From Natrinema sp. SYSU A 869 (lineage in GTDB: Archaea > Halobacteriota > Halobacteria > Halobacteriales > Natrialbaceae), in the NCBI RefSeq assembly GCF_019879105.1, contig NZ_CP082247.1, forward strand, positions 682,001 through 746,000: a stretch of DNA of 64,000 nt, read 5' to 3'. Positions within the stretch are counted from its first letter, which is position 1. The number at the start of each line of letters is the position of its first letter. Made by a program: the position numbers and the translations under genes. Of the stretch, positions 31,277 through 55,848 are shown piece by piece. The notes under the pieces are model-generated. The model saw nothing but the letters and a program-made list of their open reading frames with translations, was not told the DNA's origin and searched no databases.

Positions 31277-32104
31277 TTACAGGATCTGGTAGCCGCCGTC
31301 GACATAGAGGAGATGGCCGGTGACGTAGTCGGCGTCGTCGGAGGCCAAAAATAGGTACGAGCCCGCGAGTTCGTCGGGTGTTCCCATCCTCCCCATCGGG
31401 ATCTCGGGGTTGATCTCTTGCTCGTTGAGATCGGGAAGCTCCGCATCGGGGAGGATGAATCCGTCATCGATCTCCCGGTCGAAGTCGGGGTTGCCAGCAC
31501 CGAAGGTGGTCTCGATGATCCCCGGCGCGACGGCGTTAACCCGGATGTCGTACCGGGCGAGTTCGAGCGCCGCAACGCGGGTGAGCATCATGACCGCTCC
31601 CTTCGAGGCGTCGTACATCGAGTGGCCGACCTGTGCGTACTCGGAGCTGATCGAGGCCGTGTTCACGATCGAGCCCGGTTCCTCCCGGTCGAGCATGTCT
31701 CGAGCCGCCGCCCGACAGCCGGCGAAGACGCCGCGGACGTTGATCGCGAACACCTGATCGAACGCGTCGGCGTCGGTTTCTACCAGCGATGCCTCACGGT
31801 AGATGCCGGCGTTGTTGACCATCACATCGACGCCTCCAAACTCCCTGGCGGCTTCGACGACCGCGCCGACGTCCTCGGGATCGGAGACGTCCGTTTCGAT
31901 AAACTCCGCTCGGCCGCCGTTATCTTCGACGAGCTCGTGTGTCGGCGCCGACGCGTCGTCTTCCTTGGGCTGTTCGCGGATGTCCGCGACGATCACCGTC
32001 GCGTCTGCCTTTCCGAACCGGCGAGCGACTTCGCGGCCGATACCGGACGTTCCGCCGGTCACGATCACGGTCTCGTCGGAGAAGTCATACGTAATCTCTC
32101 CCAT
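31277..32104 (-). CDS. Classical SDR dehydrogenase, candidate pentose dehydrogenase
   Basis: A 275-residue short-chain dehydrogenase. TGGTSGIG is at 16-23, Asp41 at the end of strand 2 favours NAD over NADP, NNAG is at 97-100, the catalytic Ser at about 151-153, Tyr164 and Lys168 are in YDASK, and it ends YVDGGYQIL. An insertion around 43-60 and another before IPMGRMGTPDEL are longer than usual. In this arabinan context it could oxidise L-arabinose to arabinonolactone as the first step of the oxidative pentose pathway. That is inference: the known Haloferax arabinose dehydrogenase is an SDR but of a different subgroup as I recall. Confidence 0.75.
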   Translation of the reverse strand: MGEITYDFSDETVIVTGGTSGIGREVARRFGKADATVIVADIREQPKEDDASAPTHELVEDNGGRAEFIETDVSDPEDVGAVVEAAREFGGVDVMVNNAGIYREASLVETDADAFDQVFAINVRGVFAGCRAAARDMLDREEPGSIVNTASISSEYAQVGHSMYDASKGAVMMLTRVAALELARYDIRVNAVAPGIIETTFGAGNPDFDREIDDGFILPDAELPDLNEQEINPEIPMGRMGTPDELAGSYLFLASDDADYVTGHLLYVDGGYQIL

Positions 32105-32361: not shown

Positions 32362-33521
32362 ATGACGACTGATGGGAACCGAAACGGAAAAGCGCTCTAC
32401 ACGCCGCCGGAGGGTGCTCCCGGGCCCGGTGCGATGTACCCCCGTGTCGTCTGCTTGGACCACGACGAGTCCGAGGGAGAGACCCTGCTCGCGACCTTCG
32501 AACAGTACGAGAGTATCGACAATGATGGCACAGGACAGCCGGTCTTCCCGCTTTACCGCAGTCCTGACGGGGGAGAAACCTGGTCGCGATTCTCCGAAAT
32601 CCGCGACATGCAAAACGGCTGGGGGCTCCGATATCAACCGACGCTATTCGAACTGCCCGAGTCGATCGGCCCCTGGTCGGCGGGAACGATACTAGCTGCG
32701 GGGAACTCCATCCCGGACGACCGATCCCGGACGAAAATCGACGTGTACGCGAGCGAGGATGGCGGCCGAAACTGGTCGTCCGTGAGTACGGTGGCAACCG
32801 GTGGCAAAGCCGTTCCTCAAGCCGGTGCGACGCCGGTCTGGGAACCCGAGTTCGCGATCGACGCCGACGGGAACCTCGTCTGTTACTTCGCCGACGAACG
32901 CCACCGCGAGGAGGGGTACGCTCAGCTCGTCGGACACCGCGTCTCCCGCGACGGCGGTCGAACGTGGGGCGAGGAGACGTTCGACGTCGCGATCCCCGAC
33001 GGCGAGCAGCGACCGGGGATGCCCGTCGTGACGACACTCCCCGACGGCGGCTACGCGATGGTCTTCGAGATCGTCGGACCGAAATACGACGGAGGGATCT
33101 TCGTCAAGACCTCCCCGGACGGACGGTCGTGGGGAGAGCCGGCCGACATCGGCGCTCCGGTCCGGACGGCGGAGGGTACCAGCTCACGAACGGCCCCTAC
33201 ATCACGTGGACGGCCGCCGGCGGCGACGAGGGGACCGCACTCGTCTCAGGGAAGACGCTGCGCGACCCGGACGGGCGACAGGCCCCCGGAAGCGGCCGGA
33301 CGCTCCTCGCCACGACCGATCTCTCGGGGTTCGACTCGTGGACGACCGTTTCCGCGCCGCTCGAGTTCGACGACGCGATCGACGTCGGTCACGAGACAGT
33401 CGGGTGGACCACGCCGTTACTGCCCTCGCGGGACGATGAACGGCTGCTCCAGTTGACCTCGACGTCGGTCCAGGGCGAACGCTGTGCAATCAGCTACGCG
33501 TCCGGCCCGCTGACGCTGTGA
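32362..33521 (+). pseudogene. Cytosolic sialidase-fold (GH93-like) exo-arabinanase, one frameshift
   Basis: A six-bladed propeller protein with BNR/Asp-box repeats (SPDGGETW, SEDGGRNW, SRDGGRTW). Sequence features recalling fungal GH93 exo-arabinanases are GAMYPRVVCLD, GTILAAGNSI, VWEPEF and PGMPVVTTLPDG. It lacks a signal peptide, in contrast to the homologue at 42.6-43.9 kb. The first frame goes astray after VRTAEG at about 33175, and the homologous text continues in the next frame as YQLTNGPYITWTAAGGDEG up to 33521. One extra G in the GGG run at 33174-33176 repairs it to 386 residues. Either a sequencing slip or recent inactivation. Confidence 0.78.
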
Positions 33522-33557: not shown

Positions 33558-36230
33558 TCAGCCGCACTCCTTGGACCCGAGATCGTCGACGAGCGCGGCG
33601 AGGGCCGCCATCCCAACGGGCTGCGCTCCGTACGCGTCCGTGATTCGAAACGTGAACGCGCCGACGCGGCCGTCGCCGACCTCGCGAACGACGGCCGCTG
33701 CCGACCGGTTCGCTAGCCAGCCTTCGACGTAGCCGATCGACACGTCGTCATCCGTCGAGATATCGGCGACCACGTCGTAGGGGTAGAGACCTTCTAGTTC
33801 CCACCCGGGAACGGTGTCGACGTACTCGGCCAGCGAGGCGTCGTTGCAGTAAAACAGCGACGCCACGAGATTCCAGCTTTCCGTTTCCGGCAAACGACGG
33901 TACTCGAAGAACTCCTCGTCCGCCATGTGTCCGCTCTCGTCGGGGAGAAACACGGCGACTCCACCGTCTTCGACGTACGCTCGAACGGCAGAGTCTGGAT
34001 GGACCACCAGCGCCACGTCGACGGTCTCGTCGAGGCTCGAGACGACCTCGAAGCCGGTCTTGGACAGTCCGTCGGCGAGCCCCTCGGCGTCGGTGTACAC
34101 CGTCGTATCGCTGTCGGCGCTGGGTTCGGGAACGACGGTGATCGGTTCCCCGTTTGTCGGCGCGCTCGGCACCGAGACCGTCAGTTCGTCGTCGCGGACG
34201 CCGTCGACGGACGGGACGTCGACAGTGATGGCGTTTTCGACGCGTTCGACGCCGAAACCGTCAATTTCCACGTCGACGGTGCTCGACTCCCCGAAGATCG
34301 ACCACTCGAGCGGACCGTCGACGGCGTCGGTGGTGCCGTTGCTGACGACCACGTCGGCGGTCAGCGTCCCGCCCGACGCGACGGCGTGGGCGTCCGGATC
34401 GACGCTGACGAGGACGTCACTGTTTATTCGGGCGATGTCGTCGTGGAACGCCTTCTCCTCGCGGCGATAGTCCAGCACCCCGTTGAACTCCCACTCGATG
34501 TCGGAGAACTCCGTGAGCACGTATCCGGCGATGTCCTCACGGGTCCGCATCCGTTCGATGACGTCCGCGATCGAGCGGAACTCGCGACGCTGCCACGCGT
34601 CGGCCATCGCCGACCAGTCGTCGAAGACGTCCGAGAGGGCCGTCTCCTCGAACCGGTCGTACGCTCCCGCGGGACGCTTGATCGGGTCGTCGAAGAACTC
34701 GTAGTCGAACCACGGCGGTTCGCCGCCGTAGTGCTCCTCGATCGCGGGCAGATCGCACATCCCCCACGTCCCGAACTCGGAGACGATCTGTGGCGCGTCC
34801 GCCGGATCGGTCTCCGTTGCGCCGTAGTTGTCCGCCGGTGACGACGTCATCGACTCAAGATCGTCCGCCCACGCGGCCGCGCGGTCCGGACTGACGAAGT
34901 ACCGGTGGTAATCGTTCACGTCGGTCGCCACGTGAGCCCAGCCGGAGTTGTCGCAGACGAGCCGCGTGGGATCCCACTCCCGGGCTGATTCGTAGAGATC
35001 CGCGAGGTACCGCTGTTTCGCTTCGTCCACCCACAGCGACGTCTCGTCCTCGAGTCCCTGGGGGTTTCCGATCCCCCACTCCTCGTTGTACAGGCTCCAG
35101 ACAATCACACTGGGTCGGTTGTAGTCCCGGTCGATCATACCGCGGATCTGTTCGCGGACCTCCCGCCTCGAGCGGTCGGTGTGCACCGTCGGATTCGCGG
35201 GCTCCTCCCAGACGAGGATTCCGAGTCGATCCGCGAGTTCCAGGAAGTCCGGATGGGCCGGCTTGATGTGCTTGCGGAGCAGGTTGAACCCGAGTTCCTT
35301 CGCCGTGCAAATCTCGGACTCGAAGAGATCGGCGTCGAACGGCCGGTACAGCGTCTCCGGGTAGTACCCCTGATCGAGCGCGCCCCGCACGTAGAACGGG
35401 TCTCCGTTCAGGTACAGGCGGCCGTCGCGAGACTCGACGCTCCGCATCCCGAAGTAGTCCTCGTACCGATCGACGACCGTGCCGTCGCGCGACAGTTCCA
35501 CGACGATGTCGTACAGCACCGGGGTCTGCGGCGTCCAGTACTCGGGGTCGCCGATGGCCAGCACCGCGGTTCCCGCCCCCGCGTCTACGTCGACGGTCGA
35601 TCTCGTGACCGACTCACCGTCCCGCTCGACCATCACGGCGGCGGTCAGGTCGGTCGCACTCGCGGGCGTCGCGTCGAGATCGATCCGTACCGTGTCGTCG
35701 TCGAGATCCGGCGTCGCGCGAACGCCGTCGACGTGCCACTTCGGGACGGTCGTTACCGTGACGTCCTGCCAGATCCCGCTGATGCGCTGATACCACGGCG
35801 CGCCCTGCTTTCCGTGGGGGATCTCGCTTACGTCTTCGGGATCGGTCACTGCGACGACGATCACGTCCTCGCCGTCAGTCACCGCATCCGTGATATCTAT
35901 CTCGAAAGGGAGATAGCCGCCGCGATGCTCCCCGACCCGCTCGCCGTTCACCCACACCGTCGCCTCGTAGTCGACGGCGCCGAATCGGAGGAGCGTGCGG
36001 TCGTCTCCGGACCGTGGGAGGGCGGTATGACGGCGGTACCACGCGGTCCCGGTGTACTCGCGATACTCGTCGCGCTCTTGCCAAGCGTGGGGGACGTCAA
36101 CGGTGCAACGGCGATCGGGCCAGGTCGCGTCCGGAGCGTACCAGTTACCGGAGCGTCCGTCGGACGCCGGGTCGGTAACGAACTCCCACGGTCCGTTTAG
36201 TGTTCTCGTTTCTCGGTAACTCTCTGTCAT
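33558..36230 (-). CDS. GH2-family glycosidase (beta-galactosidase/arabinosidase-like)
   Basis: An 890-residue cytosolic enzyme (no signal). It has the N-terminal jelly-roll domain (LNGPWEFVTDP, then WYRRHTALPRSG), an Ig-like domain, and the TIM barrel with GFNLLRKHIKPAHPDFLELA, acid/base Glu383 in SLYNEEWG and nucleophile Glu485 in VSEFGTWG. An extra C-terminal region of about 270 residues includes a beta domain and a GATase-like segment (VDVALVVHPDSAVRAYVEDGGVA). GH2 enzymes hydrolyse beta-galactosides, glucuronides, mannosides or, in some members, alpha-L-arabinopyranosides. In this locus side-chain galactose from arabinogalactan is the most natural substrate, but this is inferred. Confidence 0.85.
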   Translation of the reverse strand: MTESYRETRTLNGPWEFVTDPASDGRSGNWYAPDATWPDRRCTVDVPHAWQERDEYREYTGTAWYRRHTALPRSGDDRTLLRFGAVDYEATVWVNGERVGEHRGGYLPFEIDITDAVTDGEDVIVVAVTDPEDVSEIPHGKQGAPWYQRISGIWQDVTVTTVPKWHVDGVRATPDLDDDTVRIDLDATPASATDLTAAVMVERDGESVTRSTVDVDAGAGTAVLAIGDPEYWTPQTPVLYDIVVELSRDGTVVDRYEDYFGMRSVESRDGRLYLNGDPFYVRGALDQGYYPETLYRPFDADLFESEICTAKELGFNLLRKHIKPAHPDFLELADRLGILVWEEPANPTVHTDRSRREVREQIRGMIDRDYNRPSVIVWSLYNEEWGIGNPQGLEDETSLWVDEAKQRYLADLYESAREWDPTRLVCDNSGWAHVATDVNDYHRYFVSPDRAAAWADDLESMTSSPADNYGATETDPADAPQIVSEFGTWGMCDLPAIEEHYGGEPPWFDYEFFDDPIKRPAGAYDRFEETALSDVFDDWSAMADAWQRREFRSIADVIERMRTREDIAGYVLTEFSDIEWEFNGVLDYRREEKAFHDDIARINSDVLVSVDPDAHAVASGGTLTADVVVSNGTTDAVDGPLEWSIFGESSTVDVEIDGFGVERVENAITVDVPSVDGVRDDELTVSVPSAPTNGEPITVVPEPSADSDTTVYTDAEGLADGLSKTGFEVVSSLDETVDVALVVHPDSAVRAYVEDGGVAVFLPDESGHMADEEFFEYRRLPETESWNLVASLFYCNDASLAEYVDTVPGWELEGLYPYDVVADISTDDDVSIGYVEGWLANRSAAAVVREVGDGRVGAFTFRITDAYGAQPVGMAALAALVDDLGSKECG

Positions 36231-37826: not shown

Positions 37827-38690
37827 TTACCCGGTCGTGCCGGTCCCCTGAACTTGGACGGCACGGACGATCTCTCCCTGGAAGAAGAGATAGACGATGA
37901 ACAGCGGAAGCGACGCCAGCACCGTCACGGCCATGTGCAGACCAGGCGTCGTGATGTTCCCTTGGTAGAGGTTCACCAGTCCAATGGGAAGCGTGTACGC
38001 CGACTCATCGGAGAGGACGATGAGCGGCCAGAGGAACGCGTTCCAGTTGTAGACGAACATGAACAGCGCGAGCGAGGCGAGGATGGGCCTGGCCAGCGGC
38101 AGGATGATACGGTAGTAGATTTGGAACGTCGAGAACCCATCGAGGCGCGCGGCCTCCTCGTACTCGTCAGGGATGTCCCGGAAGAACTGGTACAGGAGGA
38201 AGACGCCGAGCGGACTCGCAACCGCTGGCAGAATCACCCCCCAGTAGGAGTTCACTAGGCCGAGATCGGCAACGACCGTGTACAGCGGGACGATGTTCAT
38301 GTAGTACGGCACCATGAAACTCGCGAGGATAACGCCCATCACGATAGATTGGCCGGGCCAGTCGAGTCGCGTGAGCGAGAACGCGATCATCGAGTCGACA
38401 ACGAGGATGATGATCGTTGCCCCACCGGCAATAACAAACGTGTTAATAGTCCACTGGACGAACAGCGACTCCGTCAGGAGGTACTGGTAGTGCTCGAGCG
38501 TGATTTCCGGCGGGATCCAGTGCGGTTTCGGGTCCATCAGGTACTTCCGCGGCTGGAACGACCGTGAGATCGTATAGAGGTACGGGATCGCCATGAGGAG
38601 GGCGACACCGTACAGCACCACGTGGGTGCCCAGCGAGCGAAGCGAAACGTCGTCGAGTCGACTCGTCTGTTGTGTCGTGGAATCAGTCAT
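37827..38690 (-). CDS. CUT1 sugar ABC permease, MalG type
   Basis: A 287-residue permease with six membrane segments. The MalG signatures are the EAA loop EEAARLDGFSTFQIYYRIILPLARP and the C-terminal FFQGEIVRAVQVQG. Together with the upstream MalF-type gene (8-nt overlap) and the extracellular binding protein it forms a sugar importer, very likely for arabino-oligosaccharides, energised by the MalK/UgpC-type ATPase transcribed divergently at 41253. Confidence 0.92.
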   Translation of the reverse strand: MTDSTTQQTSRLDDVSLRSLGTHVVLYGVALLMAIPYLYTISRSFQPRKYLMDPKPHWIPPEITLEHYQYLLTESLFVQWTINTFVIAGGATIIILVVDSMIAFSLTRLDWPGQSIVMGVILASFMVPYYMNIVPLYTVVADLGLVNSYWGVILPAVASPLGVFLLYQFFRDIPDEYEEAARLDGFSTFQIYYRIILPLARPILASLALFMFVYNWNAFLWPLIVLSDESAYTLPIGLVNLYQGNITTPGLHMAVTVLASLPLFIVYLFFQGEIVRAVQVQGTGTTG

Positions 38691-39608
38691 TGGTACCGAT
38701 CACCTTGAAGTTGATAATCGCGATGAGTACGAGTATCATGACAAGAACGTAGCCGATTGCAGCTCCGTAGCCGTATTGATGTTGGGAGAAGGCGCTCCGG
38801 TAGAGGTAGTACACCAGCGTGTCCGTCGAACCTCTCGGACCGCCCGTGGTCAACACGAACGGCTGCGCGAATACTTGGAACTGGAGAATGAACTGAATGA
38901 TGACGACGAAGAGAATGGAGTTGCGCATCTGCGGGAGCGTGACGTCTTTGAATGCACGCCACGTGCTCGCGCCGTCGAGTCTGGCGGCTTCATAGAGGCG
39001 TTCCGGAACGCTCTGTCGAGCCGCGAGAAAGATCACGAAGTTGAATCCGACCAGCCACCAGACGGTCATGAATGCGAGCGCCGGCATCGCTAATTCCGTA
39101 GACGTCAGCCAGCCGGGTGGGTCCGACATAACGTATCCGAGATAGTGGTTGATCAGCCCATAGCTCTCGGAGTAGACCTCCGACCAGATGAGCGTGACAA
39201 CCGCGACGGTTAGGATATACGGGCTGAAGTAAATCGCCCGGAGGACACGTTTGCCCTTGACGTTCTTGTTAACGCCGAGTGCCAATCCCAGCCCAACGAT
39301 GACGAGCAGCGGGACCGAGAGTGCGACAAAGTATATCGTCCCTTTCATCGCATCCCAGAAGACGGGGTCGTTGAACAGTTCGATGTAGTTGTCGAGTCCG
39401 ATGAATTCGGACTCGGAAGGGACGAACGGGTCCCAGTTGTGAAGGCTCATGTAGAAGCCCTTCAGCGCCGGCCACACGAGGAACACCGAGAATACCGCCA
39501 GATACGGAATCGACCACCCGATTCCTTCGACCGTTTCCTTCCGGATACCGAATACGGTCTGCTGAGCGCGCTCGTTTCACTGCTCGTGAAACGGTTTCGT
39601 ATTCCCAT
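38683..39608 (-). pseudogene. CUT1 sugar ABC permease, MalF type, frameshift near start
   Basis: The frame from about 39574 down encodes a MalF-type permease (ETVEGIGWSIPYLAVFSVFL, then the EAA loop YEAARLDGASTWRAFKDV) but has no start codon before its first membrane helix. An ATG at 39608, 7 nt after the binding-protein stop and with GAGGAG upstream, opens as MGIRNRFTSSE in another frame. Adding one A to the run at 39575-39577 joins this to NERAQQTVFGIRKE, giving 308 residues. A GTG start at 39486 would delete the first helix. A perfect hairpin overlaps the same site. The slip may be a sequencing error, since loss of this subunit would inactivate the importer. Confidence 0.82.
39573..39593. 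repeat. Hairpin CGTTTCAC-N5-GTGAAACG at binding protein/permease junction
   Basis: A perfect 8-bp inverted repeat with a 5-nt loop begins 23 nt past the binding-protein stop codon, reading in the direction of transcription. Stem-loops at this place in sugar ABC operons (e.g. malE-malF) protect the upstream message so that the binding protein is made in excess. Here it overlaps the first codons of the permease frame and the suspected missing base. Confidence 0.5.
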
Positions 39609-39615
39609 CTGTCAG

Positions 39616-40929
39616 TTACTCCTCAAGGCCGTTACTGATCTCCGAGACGCCGTCGTCGAGTGCCTCTTGGGGGCTCCCGTAGTTGTGACCCCACATGTCG
39701 AGCAGCCACTGGTACCAACTCTCCGAGTTGGGGTCGCCGTTTGGCACCTTCGGGTGATAGAAGTACATGTCGTCTTCCGCCATCTCGAGGTACTTACTGA
39801 GGGTTTTGTCGTAGAACGACGCGTTTTGAAACACGTCGGACTCCCTGATGTCCGCGGCGGCGGGAAGGTGACCGGCTCGAGCACCCCACTCTGGGTTTTC
39901 AGTCGTCAACCAGTGGGCAACCTCCGCTGCGATTTCGGACTTTTCATCGCTACGGTTCTGGTTCCCGGGTAACACAATCGTGTGACCGTCCGCCCAGACC
40001 TGATCCTGGGTCTTATTGGGAGCGATGGTCGGCTTGAAGAAGCCCCAATCGATGTCCGACTCCTCGAGGGTGGCCACGTACCACGTACCGTTCATCGTCA
40101 TGCCCAGATTTCCGTTCTCAAAGGCGTTTGCACCCCAGTCCGCTTCAGTTGTCTGGGAGGACCACTCCATATCACCGGTCATGTCCCAGAACAGTTCGGA
40201 GGTCTCTTGGCCCGCTTGGCCGTCGAACGTCGGATTCCAATCGCTGTCGAAAAGCTCTCCGCCCTGTTGCTTGACGAGAGTGCTCCACGTTCGCCACGAG
40301 CCGAAGCCGTCATTGTAGGGAGTCTGGCTGAACGCCGATTTATCGGTTTCTTCGGCGATGGCGTTCCCTGCGGCTTGGAACTCCTCCCAGTTCGTCGGCG
40401 GGGACTCAGGGTCGAGGCCTGCTTCCTCAAAGATACCCTTATTGTAGTACATCCCGACCGGGTGCAAGTCCATCGGAAGCGCTCGCGTCTCATCTTCGAC
40501 CGACACGAGGTCCCAGTGGTTATCGAGGTAATCGCCTTCGATTTCCTCGGTATCGATGTAGTTGTCCATCGGCACGATCGTGTCGTCCCACGCACGCAGA
40601 TACGCTGCATGCATAACCGCTAGATCAGGCCCGCTACCGCCCGCAAGAGTAGTGTATAGGTTATTGTAGTACTGATCCCACGGCGTTCGCTGCCGGTCTA
40701 TTTTCACCTCCTCGTCCACGTCAAGCGGCTGTTCGTCATTGAACTTTTGAACGATGTCCTCCATCACGGGGCCTTCGCCACCGCTGAACAGTTCCCAGAA
40801 TGAAATGGTGTAGCCGCTAGAGCCCCCGGTACAGCCGGCGAGCGAGACGGCGCCTGTAGCACCAACGCTTTGGATGAATCTACGACGCGATTTCGTCGAT
40901 ATTCGATCACGAGTCATGTTTGTTCCCAT
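39616..40929 (-). CDS. CUT1 sugar-binding lipoprotein
   Basis: A 437-residue SBP_bac_1 protein. A Tat motif (RRRFIQSVGATG) and lipobox SLAGC indicate an exported lipoprotein. Typical phrases are ISFWELFSGGEGPVMEDIV, VMHAAYLRAWDD, PMDLHPVGMYYNKGIFEEAG and NGTWYVATLEE. ATG 40917 is an alternative start. The gene lies upstream of both permease genes and is first in the operon; a TATA-like element at 40952-40961 suits leaderless expression. Substrate is probably an arabino-oligosaccharide, inferred from the neighbours. Confidence 0.92.
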   Translation of the reverse strand: MGTNMTRDRISTKSRRRFIQSVGATGAVSLAGCTGGSSGYTISFWELFSGGEGPVMEDIVQKFNDEQPLDVDEEVKIDRQRTPWDQYYNNLYTTLAGGSGPDLAVMHAAYLRAWDDTIVPMDNYIDTEEIEGDYLDNHWDLVSVEDETRALPMDLHPVGMYYNKGIFEEAGLDPESPPTNWEEFQAAGNAIAEETDKSAFSQTPYNDGFGSWRTWSTLVKQQGGELFDSDWNPTFDGQAGQETSELFWDMTGDMEWSSQTTEADWGANAFENGNLGMTMNGTWYVATLEESDIDWGFFKPTIAPNKTQDQVWADGHTIVLPGNQNRSDEKSEIAAEVAHWLTTENPEWGARAGHLPAAADIRESDVFQNASFYDKTLSKYLEMAEDDMYFYHPKVPNGDPNSESWYQWLLDMWGHNYGSPQEALDDGVSEISNGLEE

Positions 40930-41252: not shown

Positions 41253-42395
41253 ATGAGTCGTGTTAGTATTGAGGACGTATCGAAGCTCTACGACGGAAGT
41301 AGCGACGGAAAAGACACAATCGTGGCCGTCGACGAAGTTAATTTCGACATCAAAGACGGCGAATTTCTCACCATCGTCGGGCCGTCTGGATCGGGCAAGT
41401 CGACACTACTGCGGATGGTCGCGGGCCTCGAAGACATCAGCAAGGGACAGATTCGTATCGGTGACCGCGTCGTCAACAACATTCAACCCCAAGACCGAGG
41501 GGTCGCCATGGTGTTCCAGAACTACGCGCTGTACCCACACATGACAACTCGGAAGAATATGGCCTACGGGCTAAAGCTGACGTCGGACCTCAATGACGAC
41601 GAGGTCCAGCAGCGAGTCGAGGACGCTGCCGAGATGATGGGCATCGAAGACCAACTCGACAAGAAACCTGGGAGCCTCTCCGGTGGCCAGCAACAGCGGG
41701 TTGCCACCGGCCGCGCTATCGTCCGCGATCCAGAAGTGTTCCTCATGGACGAGCCACTGTCGAATCTGGACGCGAAACTTCGCGCGCATATGCGGACGGA
41801 GATCCAACGCATTCACGAGGACCTCGGAACCACGTTCATCTACGTGACCCACGACCAAGAAGAAGCGATGACGATGTCCGATCGCGTCGCCATCCTCGAT
41901 CAGGGGAAAGTCCAACAGATCGGGACGCCCGACCAAATCTATAATGAACCCCAGAATCTCTTCGTCGCCGACTTCGTTGGCAGCCCTGCAATGAACCCGT
42001 TCGACGTCGAACTTGACGGAACGACGCTAATTGGAGCCGACTTCGAATACGAGCTGTCCGAGGAGTACGCCGAGCGAGTACGGGAACAGATCGCGGATGG
42101 GGAGTCTCTCGTGCTCGGGATTCGGCCTGAAGATATTCACCTCACGGACTCCTCAGCCTGGAACGCCATCGAGGCTTTCCTTGACGTGCTAGAACCCGTG
42201 GGATCAGACAACTACCTCTACCTCGAGATGAAGGGGGTCGAGGAATGCCGGGTTCGGGTTCCCGGCGACGTGAAACCCGAGGAAAACGACTCGCTGACAA
42301 TCTCCTTCGACGAGGACGACATCCACCTCTTTCGACAATCCAACGGCCGGAACATTCTGGCAGAGGAACGCGAGAAACAGGAAGTCACCGCGTGA
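41253..42395 (+). CDS. MalK/UgpC-type sugar ABC ATPase
   Basis: A 380-residue ATPase of the CUT1 class. Motifs are Walker [11 protein letters not shown]-loop VFQNYALYPHM, signature LSGGQQQR, Walker B VFLMDEPLSNLDAKLR and H-loop VTHDQEEA. The C-terminal regulatory (TOBE/MOP) domain from about 245 contains VLGIRPEDIHL. Such ATPases are often shared between several sugar importers, which would explain its separate, divergent promoter. Pairs most simply with the MalFG-type permeases at 37.8-39.6 kb. Confidence 0.93.
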   Translation: MSRVSIEDVSKLYDGSSDGKDTIVAVDEVNFDIKDGEFLTIVGPSGSGKSTLLRMVAGLEDISKGQIRIGDRVVNNIQPQDRGVAMVFQNYALYPHMTTRKNMAYGLKLTSDLNDDEVQQRVEDAAEMMGIEDQLDKKPGSLSGGQQQRVATGRAIVRDPEVFLMDEPLSNLDAKLRAHMRTEIQRIHEDLGTTFIYVTHDQEEAMTMSDRVAILDQGKVQQIGTPDQIYNEPQNLFVADFVGSPAMNPFDVELDGTTLIGADFEYELSEEYAERVREQIADGESLVLGIRPEDIHLTDSSAWNAIEAFLDVLEPVGSDNYLYLEMKGVEECRVRVPGDVKPEENDSLTISFDEDDIHLFRQSNGRNILAEEREKQEVTA

Positions 42396-42587: not shown

Positions 42588-43919
42588 TCAGAGTTTGTTC
42601 AACTTCAGCGGACACTCCGCGTACTGAATCTCACAGAGGTCCTCGTTCATCGCGGTCGAGGTCATCTGGAGGAGGTGTTTGCCGTTCGCGGATGGGAGAA
42701 TCGGCGTCGTCCATCCGGCGAAGATCCGGCCGCCGAGTTCGCTCTCCGTCTCGAAGGACAGCGATGCCTTGACCGGCGTCCAGTTGCCGCTCCCGTCAAG
42801 GTTCGTGTTGGCGAGGACAACCTCGCCGTTGCCGTCGGCCAAATTCCGGTTCCCGTCGACCAGTTGTTTGCCGGAAACGAGAATCGTCCCGTCGGGTCCA
42901 CCTCTTGGCGTCCACGTGATGTACGGGCCGTTGATGAAGCGCCGCCCGTCATCGGTGACGACCTGTTGCCCGAGGTCCGTCGGGTCGCCCCAGTCGCGGC
43001 CGTCGGGCGACGTCTTGACTCTCACCTCGCCGTTCACGTTATCGGAGCCGACGACCTCGTAGACGGCCATATAAGTGCCGTTCGGTAGTTCGACGACGAC
43101 CGGCATGCCGGGCCGGTCTGCACCGTTTGGAATTGCAGTCACGAACTCCTCGTCGCCCCACGTCTGGCCGCCATCGCTCGACGCCTTGAGGCCGACGAGT
43201 TGGTTGTAGTCGTCGTCGTCCGCCTGTCGTTCGTCGGCGAAGTAGCAGACGAGATTTCCATCCGCGTCTAGCTGTAGTTCGGGCTCCCAAACGGGGCTGT
43301 TGCCCGCGTGAGGGACTGCAGGGCCGCCGGTGGCGACGGTGCTGACATACTCCCACGACTCTCCGTGGTCGGTGCTCGCGTATAGGTCAATACTCGAATC
43401 GCCGAGTTCACCGATTTCGCCGTCCGCGACGTTGTCGGGGTCGTCGAGGATCGGAATAGCGTTCCCGGCGGCGAGGACTGTCCCGGCCGGCCACGGCCCG
43501 GTTTCCGCGGGGAGCTCGTACAGCGTCGGCTGGTATCGCAGTCCCCAGTCCTTGCCGCTCTGATCGTGGATTTCCGAGAACTTCGACCACGTCTGGCCGC
43601 CGTTCGTGCTCCGATATATCGGGAAGTACGGTTCCGCGCCGCCGCTCATCGATGGGTAGTACTCAAACGTTGCGAGCAGCGTCTCGTTGCCGCCCGGACT
43701 GTACTCGAGACGTTCGACACGCGGGTACATCGCACCCGGCGCCGGCGCTCCCTTCGGCGGAGAATAGAGTGTCTCTCCGCTATGCTCGTCGCCCGAATTC
43801 AGGTGGGCTTTCGTTACCTGTACAGCGCCGGTCGTGCCGAGACCGACAGCTCCGAGGAGCCCGATTGCTTGCAGGTGCTCTCTACGCGTGCGGTCATCGC
43901 CAGTCGTTGATTTCTTCAT
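42588..43919 (-). CDS. Membrane-anchored sialidase-fold (GH93-like) exo-arabinanase
   Basis: A 443-residue intact homologue of the frameshifted gene at 32.4 kb. The start ATG 43919 is preferred over an upstream TTG because a TATA-like TATAAATATT (43946-43955) lies about 28-36 nt before it. A twin-Arg-like N-terminus (DRTRREHLQAIGLLGAVGLG) suggests Tat export. The propeller has Asp boxes (STNGGQTW, STDHGESW, SSDGGQTW, SPDGRDW) and the GH93-like features GAMYPRVERLEY, VWEPEL, FINGPYITWTP and GWTTPILPS. GH93 enzymes release arabinobiose from the non-reducing end of linear arabinan. A sialidase role is unlikely here, but family assignment rests on my reading, not a search. Confidence 0.75.
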   Translation of the reverse strand: MKKSTTGDDRTRREHLQAIGLLGAVGLGTTGAVQVTKAHLNSGDEHSGETLYSPPKGAPAPGAMYPRVERLEYSPGGNETLLATFEYYPSMSGGAEPYFPIYRSTNGGQTWSKFSEIHDQSGKDWGLRYQPTLYELPAETGPWPAGTVLAAGNAIPILDDPDNVADGEIGELGDSSIDLYASTDHGESWEYVSTVATGGPAVPHAGNSPVWEPELQLDADGNLVCYFADERQADDDDYNQLVGLKASSDGGQTWGDEEFVTAIPNGADRPGMPVVVELPNGTYMAVYEVVGSDNVNGEVRVKTSPDGRDWGDPTDLGQQVVTDDGRRFINGPYITWTPRGGPDGTILVSGKQLVDGNRNLADGNGEVVLANTNLDGSGNWTPVKASLSFETESELGGRIFAGWTTPILPSANGKHLLQMTSTAMNEDLCEIQYAECPLKLNKL

Positions 43920-44084
43920 ACATTCGTCACCGCAACACAATCATGAATATTTATACACAATAATCTTTCCCCAAGTGAAACGAAACAGATCGGCCTTCGG
44001 TTTACGGCGACCGACGTCGTCTCACGGCGACTCGCGAAGGAACTGCATCGACGGGCCGCCGGTAGGTTCGTCAAGCGTGACGGT

Positions 44085-44587: not shown

Positions 44588-45193
44588 TTACCCCTCATGT
44601 TCAGCGATGACGGCGACGTGGAACGTGAACAACAAGAACGGGAACACCAGACACACGGTAACGGTGAGAACAGCACTGACGGCGAATAATCCGAGGCTGA
44701 CGAAGCCGAGGAGTACCGTGTCGAACGGGTGAGTGGCGGTCCACGAGTACCCACTCGTAACCGCGTCGTATACCGAGTCGCCTTCCGCTAAGCGGACGAA
44801 CGCTACGACGAGAACAGCGCCAAGGTGGGCGGTCAAGTAGCTCGCTATGACCGCAAGGGTGCCCGTCTGCACAGCTCCCGTCTGAAGGTACTGGGTGGCG
44901 TAGCCGACGGTAACGGCAGCAAAGACGACGAACACGCCGCTAAGGAGCATCGAGTTATGCCAATGCTGTGAGAGAGCGGAGACGACTGCTTCGCGGTCGA
45001 TGTGCCCGTCCTCGCGGAGCGTCAGCACGGCAGTGTAGGCGGCAAGCGTCGCCGGCCCAATAGTTATAATTGGGAGCGATGCGACGACCCAGAGAAGGCT
45101 GACAGCGACCATCGTAACACCGTTGTTGTACGCGGATTTGAACGCAACGCCGACCCCGTGGTGGACCGAACGGATGTCGTCTGACGTGTTCAT
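44588..45193 (-). CDS. DUF624-like membrane protein
   Basis: 201 residues from ATG 45193 (MNTSDDIRSVHHGVG); the upstream frame to 45232 adds an unlikely extension. It has about five membrane segments. The N-terminal amphipathic helix, then NNGVTMVAVSLLWVVASLPI and the motif TIGPATLAAYTAVLTLREDG, is the hallmark of the DUF624/YesL family. In Firmicutes, DUF624 genes sit beside CUT1 sugar importers for pectin and arabinan fragments, matching the location here. The biochemical role is unknown; it may modulate the transporter. Confidence 0.75.
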   Translation of the reverse strand: MNTSDDIRSVHHGVGVAFKSAYNNGVTMVAVSLLWVVASLPIITIGPATLAAYTAVLTLREDGHIDREAVVSALSQHWHNSMLLSGVFVVFAAVTVGYATQYLQTGAVQTGTLAVIASYLTAHLGAVLVVAFVRLAEGDSVYDAVTSGYSWTATHPFDTVLLGFVSLGLFAVSAVLTVTVCLVFPFLLFTFHVAVIAEHEG

Positions 45194-45420
45194 TGTCGCA
45201 CCCATGAAGTGGACAGTCGCGTCGCTGCGCAACAGGTGGTATCAGTCGTACCGCCCCCTACAACTCGAGCCGCTGACTGACCACCCAGCTGGCAGTTACT
45301 CGACTGCTGTCGGTCGGTCCAGTGGCTCGATCGATTCGCCATTCCGTCAGAACCCCATCGAGCGTGCATTTTGTACTATACTCTGGTTGGCCGTAATGAG
45401 TGTTACCGTCCCGTCGGAAT

Positions 45421-45999: not shown

Positions 46000-46866
46000 T
46001 CACACTTCAACGACCGTGTTGACGAGTTCGCCGATCCCGTCAATCGCGATGCGCACTTCGTCATCCGGCTGGAGCGTGAATCCGTCGTCCGGGACGAGCG
46101 ACGTTCCGGTGAGCAGAACACCGTTCCCTGGAACCGCATTGTGGTCGCGCCAGCACTCGACCAGTTCCTCACATGAGCGGTCCATCTTCCCCGTCGAGGT
46201 TTCACCGTCGTAGAGTGTCTCCCCGTCGCGGCTGATCTCCATCGTCATCGTCAGTTCGTGGGGATTGCCGACGCTGTTGGCCGACGCGACGCAGGGGCCG
46301 ATCGAACAGCACTTGTCGTACACCTTCGCCTGCGGAAGGTACAGTGGGTTCTCGCCCTCGATCGAACGGCTGCTCATGTCGTTGCCGATCGTGTAGCCGA
46401 CGATTTCGCCGTCGTAGAGGACGATCCCTAGCTCCGGTTCCGGGACGTCCCACGCTGAGTCCGCACGGATGCCGACCGGTTCGTCGGGACCGACAGTCCG
46501 ACTCGGCGTCGCCTTGAAAAAGATCTCCGGCCGCTCGGCCTCGTAGACATCTAGGTACATTTCCGGCATCCCGCTCTCGGCCTCGCGGGCTTCCTCGCTG
46601 ATCTCGTAGGTGACGCCGGCCGCCCAGACCTCGTCGGGGACCATCGGAAGAGCGCTGTCGCGTAGCGCCTCGCGCTCAACGGACGGTGCGTCGGCCATGA
46701 GCGACTCTCCTAGCTCGTCCACGCTCTCGTCCGCGACGTTTGCCGCGGCGGCGAGGTCTGCAAAGGTATCGAGTCGGGGTTTGACTGCCGTGAGATCGTA
46801 GACAGCGTCACCGTCATCGGCGACCAATCTATACCCGTCTCCGCTGGGAAGTCGATGATACCGCAT
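46000..46866 (-). CDS. xacE: Fumarylacetoacetase-fold dehydratase, XacE-like
   Basis: A 288-residue FAH-superfamily protein. The C-terminal FAH domain (about 75-285) shows EIFFKATPSRTVGPDE, the metal-site acids in EPELGIVLYDGEIVGYTIGN, DMSSRSIEGENPLYLPQAK and GNGVLLTGTSLVPDDGFTL. In Haloferax volcanii the 2-keto-3-deoxy-xylonate/arabinonate dehydratase (XacE) is an FAH-family protein that yields alpha-ketoglutarate semialdehyde. The neighbouring XacD-like gene makes this assignment the most likely. A TATA-like TTTATTACC (46888-46896) about 25 nt before the ATG predicts a leaderless message. Confidence 0.8.
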   Translation of the reverse strand: MRYHRLPSGDGYRLVADDGDAVYDLTAVKPRLDTFADLAAAANVADESVDELGESLMADAPSVEREALRDSALPMVPDEVWAAGVTYEISEEAREAESGMPEMYLDVYEAERPEIFFKATPSRTVGPDEPVGIRADSAWDVPEPELGIVLYDGEIVGYTIGNDMSSRSIEGENPLYLPQAKVYDKCCSIGPCVASANSVGNPHELTMTMEISRDGETLYDGETSTGKMDRSCEELVECWRDHNAVPGNGVLLTGTSLVPDDGFTLQPDDEVRIAIDGIGELVNTVVEV

Positions 46867-47149: not shown

Positions 47150-48379
47150 TTACGCCTCATCGAACATTTCAGCACCGTCAGCCAGATGCTCCTCGACGGC
47201 GTCGAAGTCGAGCGTCAGGCCCAGCCCCGGCTTCTCCGGCACTTCTGCGTACCCCTCGTGGATGATGTCTTCCTCGACGAGATCCGACCACCAGCCCAGT
47301 TCGTAGGAGTGGTACTCGACGGCCAGCGAGTTCGGAATCGCCGCGCCGACGTGGATACTGGCCATCGTCCCGATCGGCGAGGAGACGTTGTGCATCGCGA
47401 CCGGCACATAGTACATGTCCGCGAGATCCGCGATCTTCCGCGTCTGGCGCATCCCACCGACGCGAGGCACGTCCGGCGCGACGATATCAACCGCCTGCTC
47501 CTCGAGGAGGCGGCGGTTGCCGTGATTGCGGTAGACGTTCTCGCCGACGGTGATCGGCGTCGAGGTGCGCTTGGTGACTTCGGCCTGGACGTCGTGGTTC
47601 TCCGGCGGGATTGGGTCCTCGAGCCACCAGACGTCGTAGTCCTCTAAGCGCTCGGCGAGGCGGTGTGCGCTGCCGGAACTGAACGACCAGTGACAGTCGA
47701 AGGCGACGTCGGCGCGGTCGCCGATGCGTTCGGTGACCTTCTCGACGATTTCGGCCTTGTGTTCGATCTCGGGGCCCCGGAGGTGGCGGTTCGCGCGGTC
47801 TTTCTCGTGACCGCTGGGGACGTCGAGGTCGAACTTCAGTGCGTCGTAGCCGAGGTCCTCGACGACGCGTTCTGCCTCGTCGGCACACGCGTCCGGGTCA
47901 GCCTCCTCCTCGGTGTGGCAGTCGCAGTACATCCGCATTTCGTCGCGGTACTTGCCACCGATGAGCTGGTAGGCCGGCACGTCCAGAATCTTGCCGGCGA
48001 CGTCGTGGAGTGCGAGCTCGATCCCGGAAATCGCGGAAATCGCTTTCCCGGCGATCGAGCCCTCACCGGAGAGCTTCTGGACGAGGTGTTCGTAAAGTCG
48101 GTCGATGTCGAGCGGGTTCTCGCCCTCGAGGAAGGGTGCCATCCGCTCGATGATCTCCTGTTCGCCGGCTCCCCAGTAGGACTCGCCGTTCCCAACGAGA
48201 CCCGCGTCAGTGTAGACACGGACCAACGTCCACGGATAGTTGCCGTCGACGATGGTCGTCTGGACGTCCGTAATCTCGACATCGCGCGGCCCGCGAGAGC
48301 TGGAAACCCCCATCGTCTCCGCGGAGAGGTCGCGCATCGTATACTCTGCGTTCGGGTCGGACAGCTGTCTGTAGTCCAT
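47150..48379 (-). CDS. xacD: Enolase-superfamily pentonate dehydratase, XacD-like
   Basis: 409 residues from ATG 48379 (MDYRQLSDPNAEYTMRDLSA); the longer frame from 48505 adds non-homologous residues. Mandelate-racemase/enolase family: catalytic Lys in YDALKFDLD, metal ligands Asp in VAFDCHWSFS, Glu in WLEDPIPPEN and Glu in ITVGENVYRN, and catalytic His in VAMHNVSSPIG. H. volcanii XacD, of this family, dehydrates D-xylonate and L-arabinonate. Together with the XacE-like and IclR genes it forms the core of the oxidative pentose pathway. The dehydrogenase for the final semialdehyde is absent from the window. Confidence 0.85.
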   Translation of the reverse strand: MDYRQLSDPNAEYTMRDLSAETMGVSSSRGPRDVEITDVQTTIVDGNYPWTLVRVYTDAGLVGNGESYWGAGEQEIIERMAPFLEGENPLDIDRLYEHLVQKLSGEGSIAGKAISAISGIELALHDVAGKILDVPAYQLIGGKYRDEMRMYCDCHTEEEADPDACADEAERVVEDLGYDALKFDLDVPSGHEKDRANRHLRGPEIEHKAEIVEKVTERIGDRADVAFDCHWSFSSGSAHRLAERLEDYDVWWLEDPIPPENHDVQAEVTKRTSTPITVGENVYRNHGNRRLLEEQAVDIVAPDVPRVGGMRQTRKIADLADMYYVPVAMHNVSSPIGTMASIHVGAAIPNSLAVEYHSYELGWWSDLVEEDIIHEGYAEVPEKPGLGLTLDFDAVEEHLADGAEMFDEA

Positions 48380-48594
48380 CGACAGTCGTGAATGACGGCA
48401 GATACTACTAAAACTTCCGTCTGCAATAATACTACTGTCCGAGAATGTCCCTCGTCGGCCTTGAGTGGGGTGAACCGGTCGGCGAAGGGGACTCGCCGGT
48501 ATCACGGAAACAGTCGGACACAGCGAGCGCTCGACACTCTGTGCACGCGCATCGAGGGTCGGAACGCTGAATATTGGTACCAGAGGCGGAGAGA

Positions 48595-49355
48595 CTACGA
48601 ATAATTATGCTCGAGTTCGATGACGTTTGCGGTGCCGAGCACGGCGTCGGGAAGTTCCTCGTAGAACCGTTCCTCACTGATACGGTGGACCGGGCAGGCA
48701 ACGCTAATGGCACCGATACTCCGTTCCTCGCCATCCGTAATAGGGGCGGAGACACAGCAGAGGCCAGCGAGACGCTCCTCGTTGTCGACCGAGTACTTTC
48801 GCTCCCGAATCTGGTCGAGTTCGTCGAACAGCTGGTCACGGTCCGTAATTGTCTTGTCTGTCCTCCCGGGCATCCCATGCTTGTCGAGTATTTCGGAGAC
48901 TTCGTCGCGGGGGCGGAAGGCCAGTATCGACTTTCCGAGTCCCGTACAGTGAAGTCTAACCTGCTTTCCCTCGTGCGTATCTAGCTCGACGGCATTCTGG
49001 CCCTTCGATTGGTAGAGGTAGATTCCCATCCCGTTTTCTCGACGAGAAGGTTTGCCAACTCACCGGTTTCGTCGGCGAGTTTGTCGACTTCGGGCCGAGC
49101 GGTTTCGTAAATTTCGGTTCGATTTCGGGCGTACGCGCCGAGCCCGAGAAAGGAAAGGCCGATCTGATACTTGTCGCCTTCCTTGACGAGATACTCTCTG
49201 TTGACGAGCGTATTCAGGTGATTGTGGACCGCGCTTTTGCCGATATCGACCTGCTCAGCGATTTCAGAGACGCCGGCACCGTCGAGTTTCTGGATTATTT
49301 CGACGATCTCCATCGCCCTGTCGACCGTCCGAACCGGATGTTTTGGGTCTCCCAT
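48595..49355 (-). pseudogene. IclR-family regulator (XacR-like), one frameshift
   Basis: The N-terminal half (ATG 49355) has an IclR winged helix: MEIVEIIQKLDGAGVSEIAE, then GKSAVHNHLNTLVNREYLV. The effector-binding half is in the next frame from about 49030 (MGIYLYQSKGQNAVELDTHE, then LHCTGLGKSILAF, the usual IclR core). One extra A in the coding AAAAC run (TTTT at 49034-49037) yields a 253-residue protein, normal for IclR. XacR, an IclR protein, activates pentose catabolism in H. volcanii, and this gene sits beside xacD. A TATA-like AAATCATATA (49373-49382) lies about 22 nt before the ATG. If the shift is real, the pathway would have lost its local regulator. Confidence 0.82.
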
Positions 49356-50150: not shown

Positions 50151-52070
50151 ATGAGTTCACACGGAGGGCCCGGAGACACGGTGACGCTCGCGGACGTCGA
50201 AGTCGACGACGAATTTTGGTCGCCGCGACGGGAGCGAAACAGGAAGGTGACGATCGAATACCAGTACGAACAACTCGAGGAGTCCGGCACGCTCGAGAAC
50301 TTTCGGCGCGTCGCAGCCGGAGAGTCCGGCGGCTTTCAGGGGATGTGGTTTCAGGACTCGGACGCCTACAAGTGGATCGAAGCGGCCTCATACGTGCTCG
50401 CTCAGCGCGATGATCCGGAACTCGAGGAGAACGTCGACGCGGTGATTTCGCTGATCGCCGATGCACAGGGGGCAGACGGCTACGTGAACACCTACTTCTC
50501 GCTGGTCGAGCCCGAGAATCGGTGGACGAACCTCCACATGATGCATGAACTCTACTGTGCCGGGCATCTGATCGAATCCGCAGTCGCCCACTACAGAGCG
50601 ACGGGAAAGGAGACGCTGCTCGACGTGGCGATTGACTTCGCGGATCTCGTCGACGATGTCTTCGGCGACGAGATCCAGGGGGTCCCCGGCCACGAGGAGA
50701 TCGAACTGGCGCTCGTGAAGCTCTACCGGGTTACCGGCACGACTCGATATCTCGACCTCGCGAAATACTTCATCGATCTCCGCGGGACGGACGATCGATT
50801 GGCGTGGGAAATAGACAATCCGGAGACGCTCGGCGGCGGCGAGTACGAGGACGGTGCCATCATTCCCGACGCACGGAGCGTCTTCACCCACGAAGACGGA
50901 ACGTACGACGGGCGGTACGCTCAGGCCCACGAGCCGCTCCGAGACCAGGAGACCGTCGACGGCCACTCCGTCAGGGCGATGTACCTGTTCGCGGCGGCGA
51001 CGGACCTCGCCATTGAGACGAGTGAGTCCGAGTTGATCGAGGCCATAGAGCGCCTCTGGACGAACATGACCACCAAGCGGATGTACGTCACCGGCGGGAT
51101 CGGCCCCGAAGAAGCACACGAGGGGTTCACGACGAACTACGATCTCAGAAACGACGCCTATGCCGAGACCTGCGCCGCGATCGGAAGCGTCTACTGGAAT
51201 CAGCGGCTGTTCGAACTCACCGGCGAGGCGAAGTACGCCGATCTCATCGAGCGAACGCTATACAATGGCTTCCTCGCCGGTGTCTCGCTCGACGGGACCG
51301 AGTTCTTCTACGAAAATCCCTTAGAGAGCGACGGCGACCATCACCGAAAGGGATGGTTCACCTGCGCGTGCTGCCCGCCGAACGCGGCCCGTCTCCTCGC
51401 GTCGCTGGGCGAATACATCTACAGCCAGCGGGAGTCAGAACTCTACGTCAATCAGTACGTCAGCAGCACCGTCACGACGACGGTCGGCGACGCGACCGTC
51501 AAACTGTCACAGGATAGTTCCCTCCCCTGGTCCGGCGGGGTGGCCATCGACGTTGACGCCGACGGAGCGTCGGTGCCGCTTCGCCTTCGAATTCCCGAGT
51601 GGACCGAATCGACGACGGTGACGGTAAACGGCGAGCCGCTCGAGGCTTCCGTCCCATCGGAGGGCTACCTCGAGCTAGAACGGGAGTGGACCGATGATCG
51701 GATCGAGTTGACCGTTGACCAGACGGTCACGCAACTGGAAGCACATCCGGACGTAGCTGCCGACGCCGGCCGCGTCGCCCTCAAACGCGGCCCGCTCGTC
51801 TACTGCCTCGAGGCGGTCGACAACGATCGGCCGCTCCATCAGTACGAGGACCCGTCTTCGGCGGTTTCGACGGAGTATCGACCGGACCTGCTCGAGGGGG
51901 CCACGGTCATCGAGGGAGAGGCGAGCGTGCCAGATCGGGAGGGCTGGGACGACGAACTGTATCGCCCAGCGAGCGAGACAGCTCGGGAACGGACCGAGTT
52001 CACCGCGGTGCCGTACTACGCGTGGGACAACCGCGATCCCGGATCAATGCGGGTCTGGATACGGTCGTAG
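50151..52070 (+). CDS. GH127 beta-L-arabinofuranosidase
   Basis: A 639-residue cytosolic enzyme (no signal). The alpha/alpha-barrel has AGESGGFQGMWFQDSDAYKW and GYVNTYFSLVEPENRWTNLH. The catalytic zinc site is visible as Glu339 and Cys341 in AYAETCAAIG and Cys407-Cys408 in CACCPPN, the same arrangement as in Bifidobacterium HypBA1 (Glu338, Cys340, Cys417, Cys418), where the first of the Cys pair is the nucleophile. C-terminal beta-sandwich domains follow (VPLRLRIPEWTESTTVTVNG). Releases beta-L-arabinofuranose, found in plant extensins and some arabinan side chains. Intact, and oriented opposite to the IclR gene. Confidence 0.88.
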   Translation: MSSHGGPGDTVTLADVEVDDEFWSPRRERNRKVTIEYQYEQLEESGTLENFRRVAAGESGGFQGMWFQDSDAYKWIEAASYVLAQRDDPELEENVDAVISLIADAQGADGYVNTYFSLVEPENRWTNLHMMHELYCAGHLIESAVAHYRATGKETLLDVAIDFADLVDDVFGDEIQGVPGHEEIELALVKLYRVTGTTRYLDLAKYFIDLRGTDDRLAWEIDNPETLGGGEYEDGAIIPDARSVFTHEDGTYDGRYAQAHEPLRDQETVDGHSVRAMYLFAAATDLAIETSESELIEAIERLWTNMTTKRMYVTGGIGPEEAHEGFTTNYDLRNDAYAETCAAIGSVYWNQRLFELTGEAKYADLIERTLYNGFLAGVSLDGTEFFYENPLESDGDHHRKGWFTCACCPPNAARLLASLGEYIYSQRESELYVNQYVSSTVTTTVGDATVKLSQDSSLPWSGGVAIDVDADGASVPLRLRIPEWTESTTVTVNGEPLEASVPSEGYLELEREWTDDRIELTVDQTVTQLEAHPDVAADAGRVALKRGPLVYCLEAVDNDRPLHQYEDPSSAVSTEYRPDLLEGATVIEGEASVPDREGWDDELYRPASETARERTEFTAVPYYAWDNRDPGSMRVWIRS

Positions 52071-54295: not shown

Positions 54296-54345
54296 GTGAC
54301 ATAAACCGAGACACTTATACTATCCTATCAGAAAGGGGATTGTGG

Positions 54346-55848
54346 ATGGCTGACGCACATATTACAGTTCATACTGCAGCGGGTATCGACCGCATCGAAC
54401 CCGAAGTACACGGTCACTTCTCCGAACACCTTGGGCGGTGTATCTACGATGGCGTCTGGCAAAGCGACAGCGCGGACGAGGACGGGTTCCGGGAAGACGT
54501 CGTCTCACTCCTGTCCGACCTCGAGGTTCCCGTTCTTCGCTGGCCCGGCGGCTGTTTCGCCGACGACTATCATTGGGAAGACGGCGTCGGCCCACAGGAG
54601 GAGCGACCGCGACGTCGGAACCTCTTCTGGGCGCAGGGGACCGAAGAACTCCCCGAAGAGTCCAACGCCTTCGGCACCGACGAGTTCCTGGAACTGTGTG
54701 AACGCATCGGTACGGAACCGTACCTCGCAGCCAACGTCGGCTCGGGCGATCCACAGGAAGCCGCCGACTGGGTCGAGTACTGCAACTACGACGGCGACAC
54801 CGAACTCGCGGATCGTCGACGGGAGAACGGACACGAGGAGCCCTACGGCGTCAAATACTGGGGGCTCGGCAACGAGAACTGGGGCTGTGGCGGCCAGATG
54901 ACTCCCGAGCAGTACGCCCGGAAGTACCGCCAGTTCGCGACCTACGTCGGGACCATGGATAACCTGATGCTCGATCACGAGATCGAGCGCATCGCCTGTG
55001 GCTTCGAGGGCCACGAGTGGAACCGCCGCTTCCTCGAAGAGGTCAACGGCTCGGCGTGGGGCGCGGAGTTCCCGCTCGACCACCTCACGCTGCATCACTA
55101 CTACGGGCGGACGATGAACGTTTCCGAGGCGGACGAGGACCAGTACGACCAGCTCCTCGTCGAAGCGCTCGAGATGGAAGACCACATCGAGCGAATGGCC
55201 GCGGCGATCAACGCGGTGGCGACGACTCGCGACATCGGCGTCATCATCGACGAGTGGGGCACTTGGCATCCCGAAGCGACGGCCGACAACGGGCTTGAAC
55301 AGCCGGGGACCGTCCTCGACGCCCTCTCCGCAGCAGCCGTCCTCGACATCTTCAACGACCACAGCGACGTCGTGACGATGACGAACATCGCACAGACGGT
55401 CAACGTCTTGCAGTGTCTCGTCGAGACCGACGGGGACGACGCCTGGGCGCGTCCGACCTACCGTGTCTTCGACATGTACGCGCCGCACAAGGGTAGCGAG
55501 GCCGTTCAGACATCGGTCGAAGCACCAACGCGCGAACTCACCGATGATGACCGCGAACTGCCGCTCGTTGGCGCGTCTGCGTCGGTCGACGACGACGAGG
55601 CCTACGTTACCGTCACGAACCTCGACTGCCGTGAGACGCACACGATCGACGTCAACCTCGAGGGCATGTCGCTCGAAGCCGATGACGTCGACGCCGAACT
55701 CCTGTTCGAGGACCACGACCCTGCAGTGGAAGCCGACGCCGACAACGCGGCGGAGTTCACCGCTGAGGACCTCGACGTCTCGATCGACAACGGATCTCTG
55801 ATAGCAGAACTTCCAGCGTCGACGGTGGCCGGAATTTCGATCGAGTAA
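54346..55848 (+). CDS. Cytosolic GH51 alpha-L-arabinofuranosidase
   Basis: 500 residues from ATG 54346, the usual GH51 length. Highlights are EPEVHGHFSEHLGRCIYDGV, RWPGGCFADDYHWEDGVGP, acid/base Glu177 in WGLGNENWGC and nucleophile Glu303 in VIIDEWGTWH. The C-terminal beta domain from about 380 includes VTNLDCRETHTIDVNLEG. No signal peptide, so it acts on imported arabinosides. It differs strongly from the exported GH51 at 28.7 kb, which has an extra N-terminal domain; they are not recent duplicates. Confidence 0.92.
   Translation: MADAHITVHTAAGIDRIEPEVHGHFSEHLGRCIYDGVWQSDSADEDGFREDVVSLLSDLEVPVLRWPGGCFADDYHWEDGVGPQEERPRRRNLFWAQGTEELPEESNAFGTDEFLELCERIGTEPYLAANVGSGDPQEAADWVEYCNYDGDTELADRRRENGHEEPYGVKYWGLGNENWGCGGQMTPEQYARKYRQFATYVGTMDNLMLDHEIERIACGFEGHEWNRRFLEEVNGSAWGAEFPLDHLTLHHYYGRTMNVSEADEDQYDQLLVEALEMEDHIERMAAAINAVATTRDIGVIIDEWGTWHPEATADNGLEQPGTVLDALSAAAVLDIFNDHSDVVTMTNIAQTVNVLQCLVETDGDDAWARPTYRVFDMYAPHKGSEAVQTSVEAPTRELTDDDRELPLVGASASVDDDEAYVTVTNLDCRETHTIDVNLEGMSLEADDVDAELLFEDHDPAVEADADNAAEFTAEDLDVSIDNGSLIAELPASTVAGISIE

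Follow-up and report, generated by a model that had tools for sequence, protein, structure and literature searches.

A haloarchaeal GH93 protein, predicted to be a secreted exo-arabinanase, in an arabinan-utilisation locus, and catalytically dead GH93-IclR fusions in related genomes

The gene for P0001 lies among arabinan-related genes in the 64 kb stretch of DNA analysed here (the window), and it raises the question of whether a protein bearing Asp boxes is a GH93 exo-arabinanase, a sialidase or a member of a novel family. An earlier note on this DNA, which gave no strand for the gene, had favoured GH93 on the basis of Asp boxes and two short motifs, and had described the N-terminus as Tat-type. 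The open reading frame is on the minus strand, with its ATG at 43919 and the last base of its stop codon at 42588, and encodes 443 aa; orthologues at 68-88% identity and PDB matches at 7e-53 place it far beyond chance, and it is a genuine gene. The noted motifs were all located in P0001: three good Asp boxes (residues 104-111, STNGGQTW; 182-189, STDHGESW; and 247-254, SSDGGQTW), a degenerate fourth at 304-311, VWEPEL at 210-215 and FINGPYITWTP at 328-338. The N-terminus, MKKSTTGDDRTRREHLQAIGLLGAVGLG, likewise carries a twin-Arg motif and, after it, a hydrophobic stretch, and relatives keep the motif as TRREHL, SRRKYL or TRRDYL; Tat export of P0001 is predicted from this motif.

Sequence and structure comparisons were used to place P0001 in a family. 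In phmmer searches of the PDB, Penicillium chrysogenum Abnx (3A71/3A72) was the top match (E 7.2e-53), followed by the Fusarium graminearum Arb93A structures 2YDT and 2W5N (about 1e-46), and the best sialidase scored 0.0012; a profile built from 20 haloarchaeal GH93 sequences reached 2.5e-76 to Abnx, and the profile value with A2 was 1.9e-111. An AlphaFold model of P0001 made from a 29-row alignment (mean pLDDT 82.9, pTM 0.84) is a GH93-type six-bladed beta-propeller with disorder limited to residues 1-43 (pLDDT <50). When this model was compared with the PDB by Foldseek, the top six matches were all GH93 (E 3e-26 to 2e-25), with the next at 8e-12, and VIA-align gave Z 46.1-46.6 against GH93 structures (rmsd 2.0-2.1 Å, 346-351 residues aligned). 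A GH33 sialidase, or another sialidase-fold protein outside GH93 that merely resembles the family, would share the Asp boxes and six-bladed fold, and P0001 matches only the generic BNR_2 model in Pfam (5.8e-9), with no GH93 model match found in Pfam or NCBIfam, generic BNR only; however, GH93 outscores the best sialidase by 50 orders of magnitude (7e-53 versus 1e-3), sialidases align to the model with Z of only about 30 versus 46, the GH93 catalytic Glu pair is present and the neighbouring genes are arabinan-related. The best match is thus not to sialidases, and this alternative is extremely improbable. P0001 has several conserved Arg residues (R67, R128, R231 and R269). Because P0001 shows homology to fungal GH93 over the whole catalytic domain, the same propeller fold in its model and both catalytic Glu residues, it is a GH93 member and not the founder of a novel family, and the preference of the earlier note for an exo-arabinanase over a sialidase is strongly supported by the sequence and the model. 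Overall, P0001 is very probably a haloarchaeal GH93 exo-alpha-1,5-L-arabinanase acting in arabinan use.

The catalytic pair, which had been proposed as something to look for in a structural model, was found at E212 and E288, corresponding to E170 and E242 of Arb93A (the E242A mutant of which is PDB 2YDP), and every aligned member that is not a fusion, whether archaeal, actinobacterial (Streptomyces) or fungal, has both residues. A third residue of Arb93A, Tyr337 (chain position 323 of 2YDT), is listed as catalytic alongside E170 and E242 (PMC11813348), although it lies outside the CAZy family definition; P0001 has Trp403 instead. Bacterial sequences of intermediate form (SGYSQTLVLSPDG against AGWTTPILPSANG) fix the position of this column. 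Y433 was considered as the Tyr337 equivalent and was ruled out by counting from E170/E242 (PDB chain offset 14) and by the Streptomyces alignment, both of which lead to W403. Directly before the Trp403 column, haloarchaeal GH93 sequences carry an insertion of 7-10 residues. Trp also occupies the column in two distant sequences from small genomes (L065 and L066). As judged from the alignments, the change from Tyr to Trp is a real, branch-specific difference; it leaves family membership unaffected, since GH93 membership rests on sequence similarity, but details of the mechanism or its rate may differ. The Trp found in every aligned haloarchaeal sequence, together with the insertion in the archaeal C-terminal blade, could instead mean that the enzyme has the GH93 fold but a shifted specificity, with a target such as another furanoside oligomer or the arabinosyl side chains of arabinogalactan; the presence nearby of genes for a GH2 enzyme and a GH127 beta-L-arabinofuranosidase suggests that the substrate is richer than linear arabinan. 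Against this, P0001 retains almost every other residue that is invariant in GH93 from fungi and bacteria, and a GH43 endo-arabinanase is encoded in the same locus, which makes shifted specificity unlikely.

The gene for the predicted exo-arabinanase sits in an arabinan-utilisation locus (Table 1). The surroundings had been called purely arabinan-related, and this is true in the main but not strictly, as the 64 kb also encode zinc and nickel/peptide ABC transporters, CobW proteins, an ABC exporter and a MatE protein; no sialic-acid genes, which were also said to be absent, were found among the window ORFs scanned (a part of all ORFs). When proteins of the window were compared with other loci by tblastn, clade A GH93 genes, to which that of P0001 belongs, were found to adjoin a MalFGK-type importer with its solute-binding protein and a DUF624 gene, usually with GH51 as well, and this arrangement is present in Haloferax, Haloarcula, Halarchaeum and Haloterrigena, that is, in several haloarchaeal families. 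This co-location supports import of the products of the clade A enzyme.

Table 1. Positions of the features discussed, in window coordinates except for the fusion ORFs, which are given by locus.
Feature	Position	Strand	Basis or remark
GH93 clade A protein P0001, 443 aa, predicted secreted exo-alpha-1,5-L-arabinanase (arabinobiohydrolase)	42588..43919	-	sequence, fold
Tat-type N-terminus, residues 1-40 (RR, then hydrophobic stretch)	43800..43919	-	sequence, kept in orthologues; low-confidence, disordered in model
TATAAATA, probable archaeal TATA element, some 30 nt before the P0001 ATG	43948..43955	-	inferred from sequence; Haloterrigena salina L030 has a similar one
Codon of E212 in VWEP (Arb93A E170)	43284..43286	-	alignment; residue numbers from PMC11813348
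Codon of E288 (Arb93A E242)	43056..43058	-	alignment
Codon of W403 (column of Arb93A Y337)	42711..42713	-	Tyr in fungi and Streptomyces, but Trp in all aligned haloarchaeal sequences
GH43 endo-arabinanase (AbnA-like) with ricin-type lectin repeats	26909..28423	-	
Arabinosylfuranosidase-like (ArfA) alpha-L-arabinofuranosidase	28726..31203	+	
SDR dehydrogenase, candidate pentose dehydrogenase	31277..32104	-	inferred from context
GH93 clade B paralogue without signal sequence, frameshifted	32362..33521	+	one-base homopolymer deletion, GGG versus GGGG, near 33173-33176
GH2 glycosidase	33558..36230	-	
MalG, MalF and solute-binding protein of CUT1-type sugar ABC importer	37827..40929	-	co-located with clade A genes
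MalK/UgpC-type ATPase of CUT1-type importer	41253..42395	+	
DUF624 membrane protein	44588..45232	-	usual companion of clade A GH93 and importer
FAH-family hydrolase/dehydratase, candidate 2-keto-3-deoxy-pentonate step	46000..46866	-	inferred
MR/MLE-family sugar-acid dehydratase, candidate arabinonate dehydratase	47150..48505	-	
IclR-type regulator	48595..49355	-	one-base frameshift in A-run near 49037
GH127 beta-L-arabinofuranosidase	50151..52070	+	
GH51-type alpha-L-arabinofuranosidase	54340..55848	+	
GH93-IclR fusion ORFs	L085:9221-11326, L086:8076-10163, L087:8332-10446		
GH93-IclR fusion ORFs	L088:9468-11582, L089:9825-11909, L090:9448-11514		

GH93 matches were found in 24 of 391 sampled genomes of the class of the window organism and in 12 of 125 of its family; named relatives come from haloarchaea and Streptomyces, and no relatives were found in viral contigs. 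In the tree, clade A, which includes P0001 and has the Tat-type N-terminus, received support of 99/100, the bacterial and fungal sequences grouped together (100/97) apart from the haloarchaea, and the GH93-IclR fusions described below formed a group of their own (100/99). A further B-like set is mostly without a signal sequence, and the tree does not show it to be a single clade. Two B-like proteins, from Actinarchaeum halophilum and a near relative (L043 and L044), do have a twin-Arg N-terminus, unlike other clade B members, and the gene at L043 adjoins importer genes of its own. Haloterrigena salina and two other genomes carry both GH93 copies intact, about 10 kb apart, in the arrangement of the window; in the window itself the clade B copy is broken at a GGGG run that is intact in relatives, and one A is missing from an A-run in the IclR gene, again intact in relatives. 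Among the syntenic genes of the window compared with relatives, no other clear frameshift was found. The two breaks reflect either long-read consensus error or genuine decay, which are inseparable here because both are homopolymer losses.

Six genomes from the family of the window organism (G062, G105, G242, G379, G691 and G710) each have a single ORF of 688-704 aa in which a signal-less, B-like GH93 domain is joined in frame, through a variable linker, to an entire IclR regulator (HTH_IclR and IclR_C). No such fusion was found in the genome of the window, nor outside its family in the sampled genomes. Both catalytic Glu residues are absent in all six, with E212 replaced by A, V or D and E288 by F, Y or H. 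Just five of the 120 positions invariant in 17 archaeal enzymes are altered in every fusion, and the catalytic pair accounts for two of these five (p about 0.0014 for both falling among them by chance, by simple hypergeometric counting). Pairwise dN/dS of the GH93 domain is 0.11-0.27, with similar values in the IclR part and in active B enzymes, and reaches about 1 in the linker in some pairs; as measured on these sequences, the dead domain is still under purifying selection. The fusion genes are surrounded by GH127, GH2, GH51, GH43 and ArfA genes, and in five of the six genomes a GH2 or GH51 gene is oriented divergently to the fusion. Among IclR proteins that stand alone, the closest relatives show 45-49% identity; one of them, in Halorhabdus, is encoded roughly 6 kb from the gene of an active GH93 B enzyme and is a plausible source of the fusion. 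Five of the six fusion genes (L085, L086, L088, L089 and L090) are preceded by an ORF of 27-50 codons that begins MTHART.., MTNART.., MRHARS.. or MAHART... Its start lies some 30 nt downstream of a TATA-like ATAAG element, and its end overlaps the start of the fusion at ATGA; translational coupling or a leader peptide is possible. Altogether, the GH93 domain of the fusions is probably a sensor, in which the dead cleft would bind arabinobiose or arabino-oligosaccharides and switch the neighbouring glycosidase genes, so that a one-component regulator would have arisen from a retired enzyme.

In the pathway that we propose, secreted P0001 would clip two-sugar units (arabinobiose) off arabinan, and this arabinobiose, along with short arabino-oligosaccharides, would enter the cell through the adjoining MalFGK-type importer. 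Imported oligomers may be hydrolysed in the cytosol by the clade B paralogue, which lacks a signal sequence and is frameshifted in the window assembly. L-arabinose would be set free by the GH51, ArfA and GH127 enzymes and would reach central metabolism by way of the SDR, MR/MLE dehydratase and FAH enzymes. In the six related genomes, the dead B-like GH93 fused to IclR would most likely bind an arabino-oligosaccharide uncut and control the local arabinan genes.

According to excerpts of two reports, GH93 genes were annotated in 2011 in Haloferax volcanii, Haloterrigena turkmenica and Halorhabdus utahensis (PMC3102087), and in 2022 in mannan-utilising natronoarchaea (PMC9726719). Archaeal GH93 is therefore prior knowledge, and of the suggestion that P0001 belonged to a new archaeal branch or a novel family, what stands is the clade split and the Tyr-to-Trp change. 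These two, together with the dead GH93-IclR fusions, are new here; the fusions are the surprising part, and the window gene itself is ordinary. The excerpts of the two reports hold no clades, active-site analysis or regulator fusions, and no published GH-IclR fusion or inactive glycoside hydrolase sensor within a regulator was found in searches of open-licence papers. One GH93-bearing isolate showed no growth on arabinan (PMC9726719, in excerpt), so possession of the gene is not enough to predict the phenotype. All characterised GH93 enzymes in the table of a 2025 review are fungal (PMC11813348); a secreted, presumably salt-tolerant archaeal GH93 would allow the family to be tested for the first time in a prokaryote, and in P0001 one of the residues listed as catalytic is naturally changed from Tyr to Trp. 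The fusions, if they are sensors, would show an exo-acting glycosidase turned into a cytosolic sugar sensor, with the live enzyme, the dead enzyme and the free-standing regulator all available for comparison.

Among known systems, P0001 resembles Arb93A (2W5N, 2W5O, 2YDT and 2YDP) over the whole domain, as a six-bladed propeller (Z 46.6, rmsd 2.0) with E212/E288 in the places of E170/E242, but differs in being archaeal, in its Tat-type N-terminus, in having Trp403 for Tyr337 and in the insertion before the last blade. The same differences separate it from Abnx, its best PDB match (7e-53; profile 2.5e-76) at 37% structural identity, which uses a eukaryotic secretion route. The Streptomyces GH93 proteins (L045-L059) share 38-41% best-segment identity with P0001 and keep the catalytic Glu; unlike P0001, they have Tyr at the 337 column and C-terminal ricin-type (QxW) repeats in the ORFs read. 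Ricin-type lectin repeats are common to these proteins and the GH43 endo-arabinanase of the window. The haloarchaeal GH93 genes in the excerpts of PMC3102087 and PMC9726719 belong to the same organism group and family as P0001 and are annotations only. Finally, the haloarchaeal IclR regulators XacR, GacR, RhcR and MscR, which control sugar catabolism, have the usual two-domain composition (PMC11519228); they have the HTH and IclR_C effector domain in common with the fusions and are relatives of their C-terminal half, whereas the fusions carry in addition an N-terminal dead GH93 domain of 390 aa and a linker.
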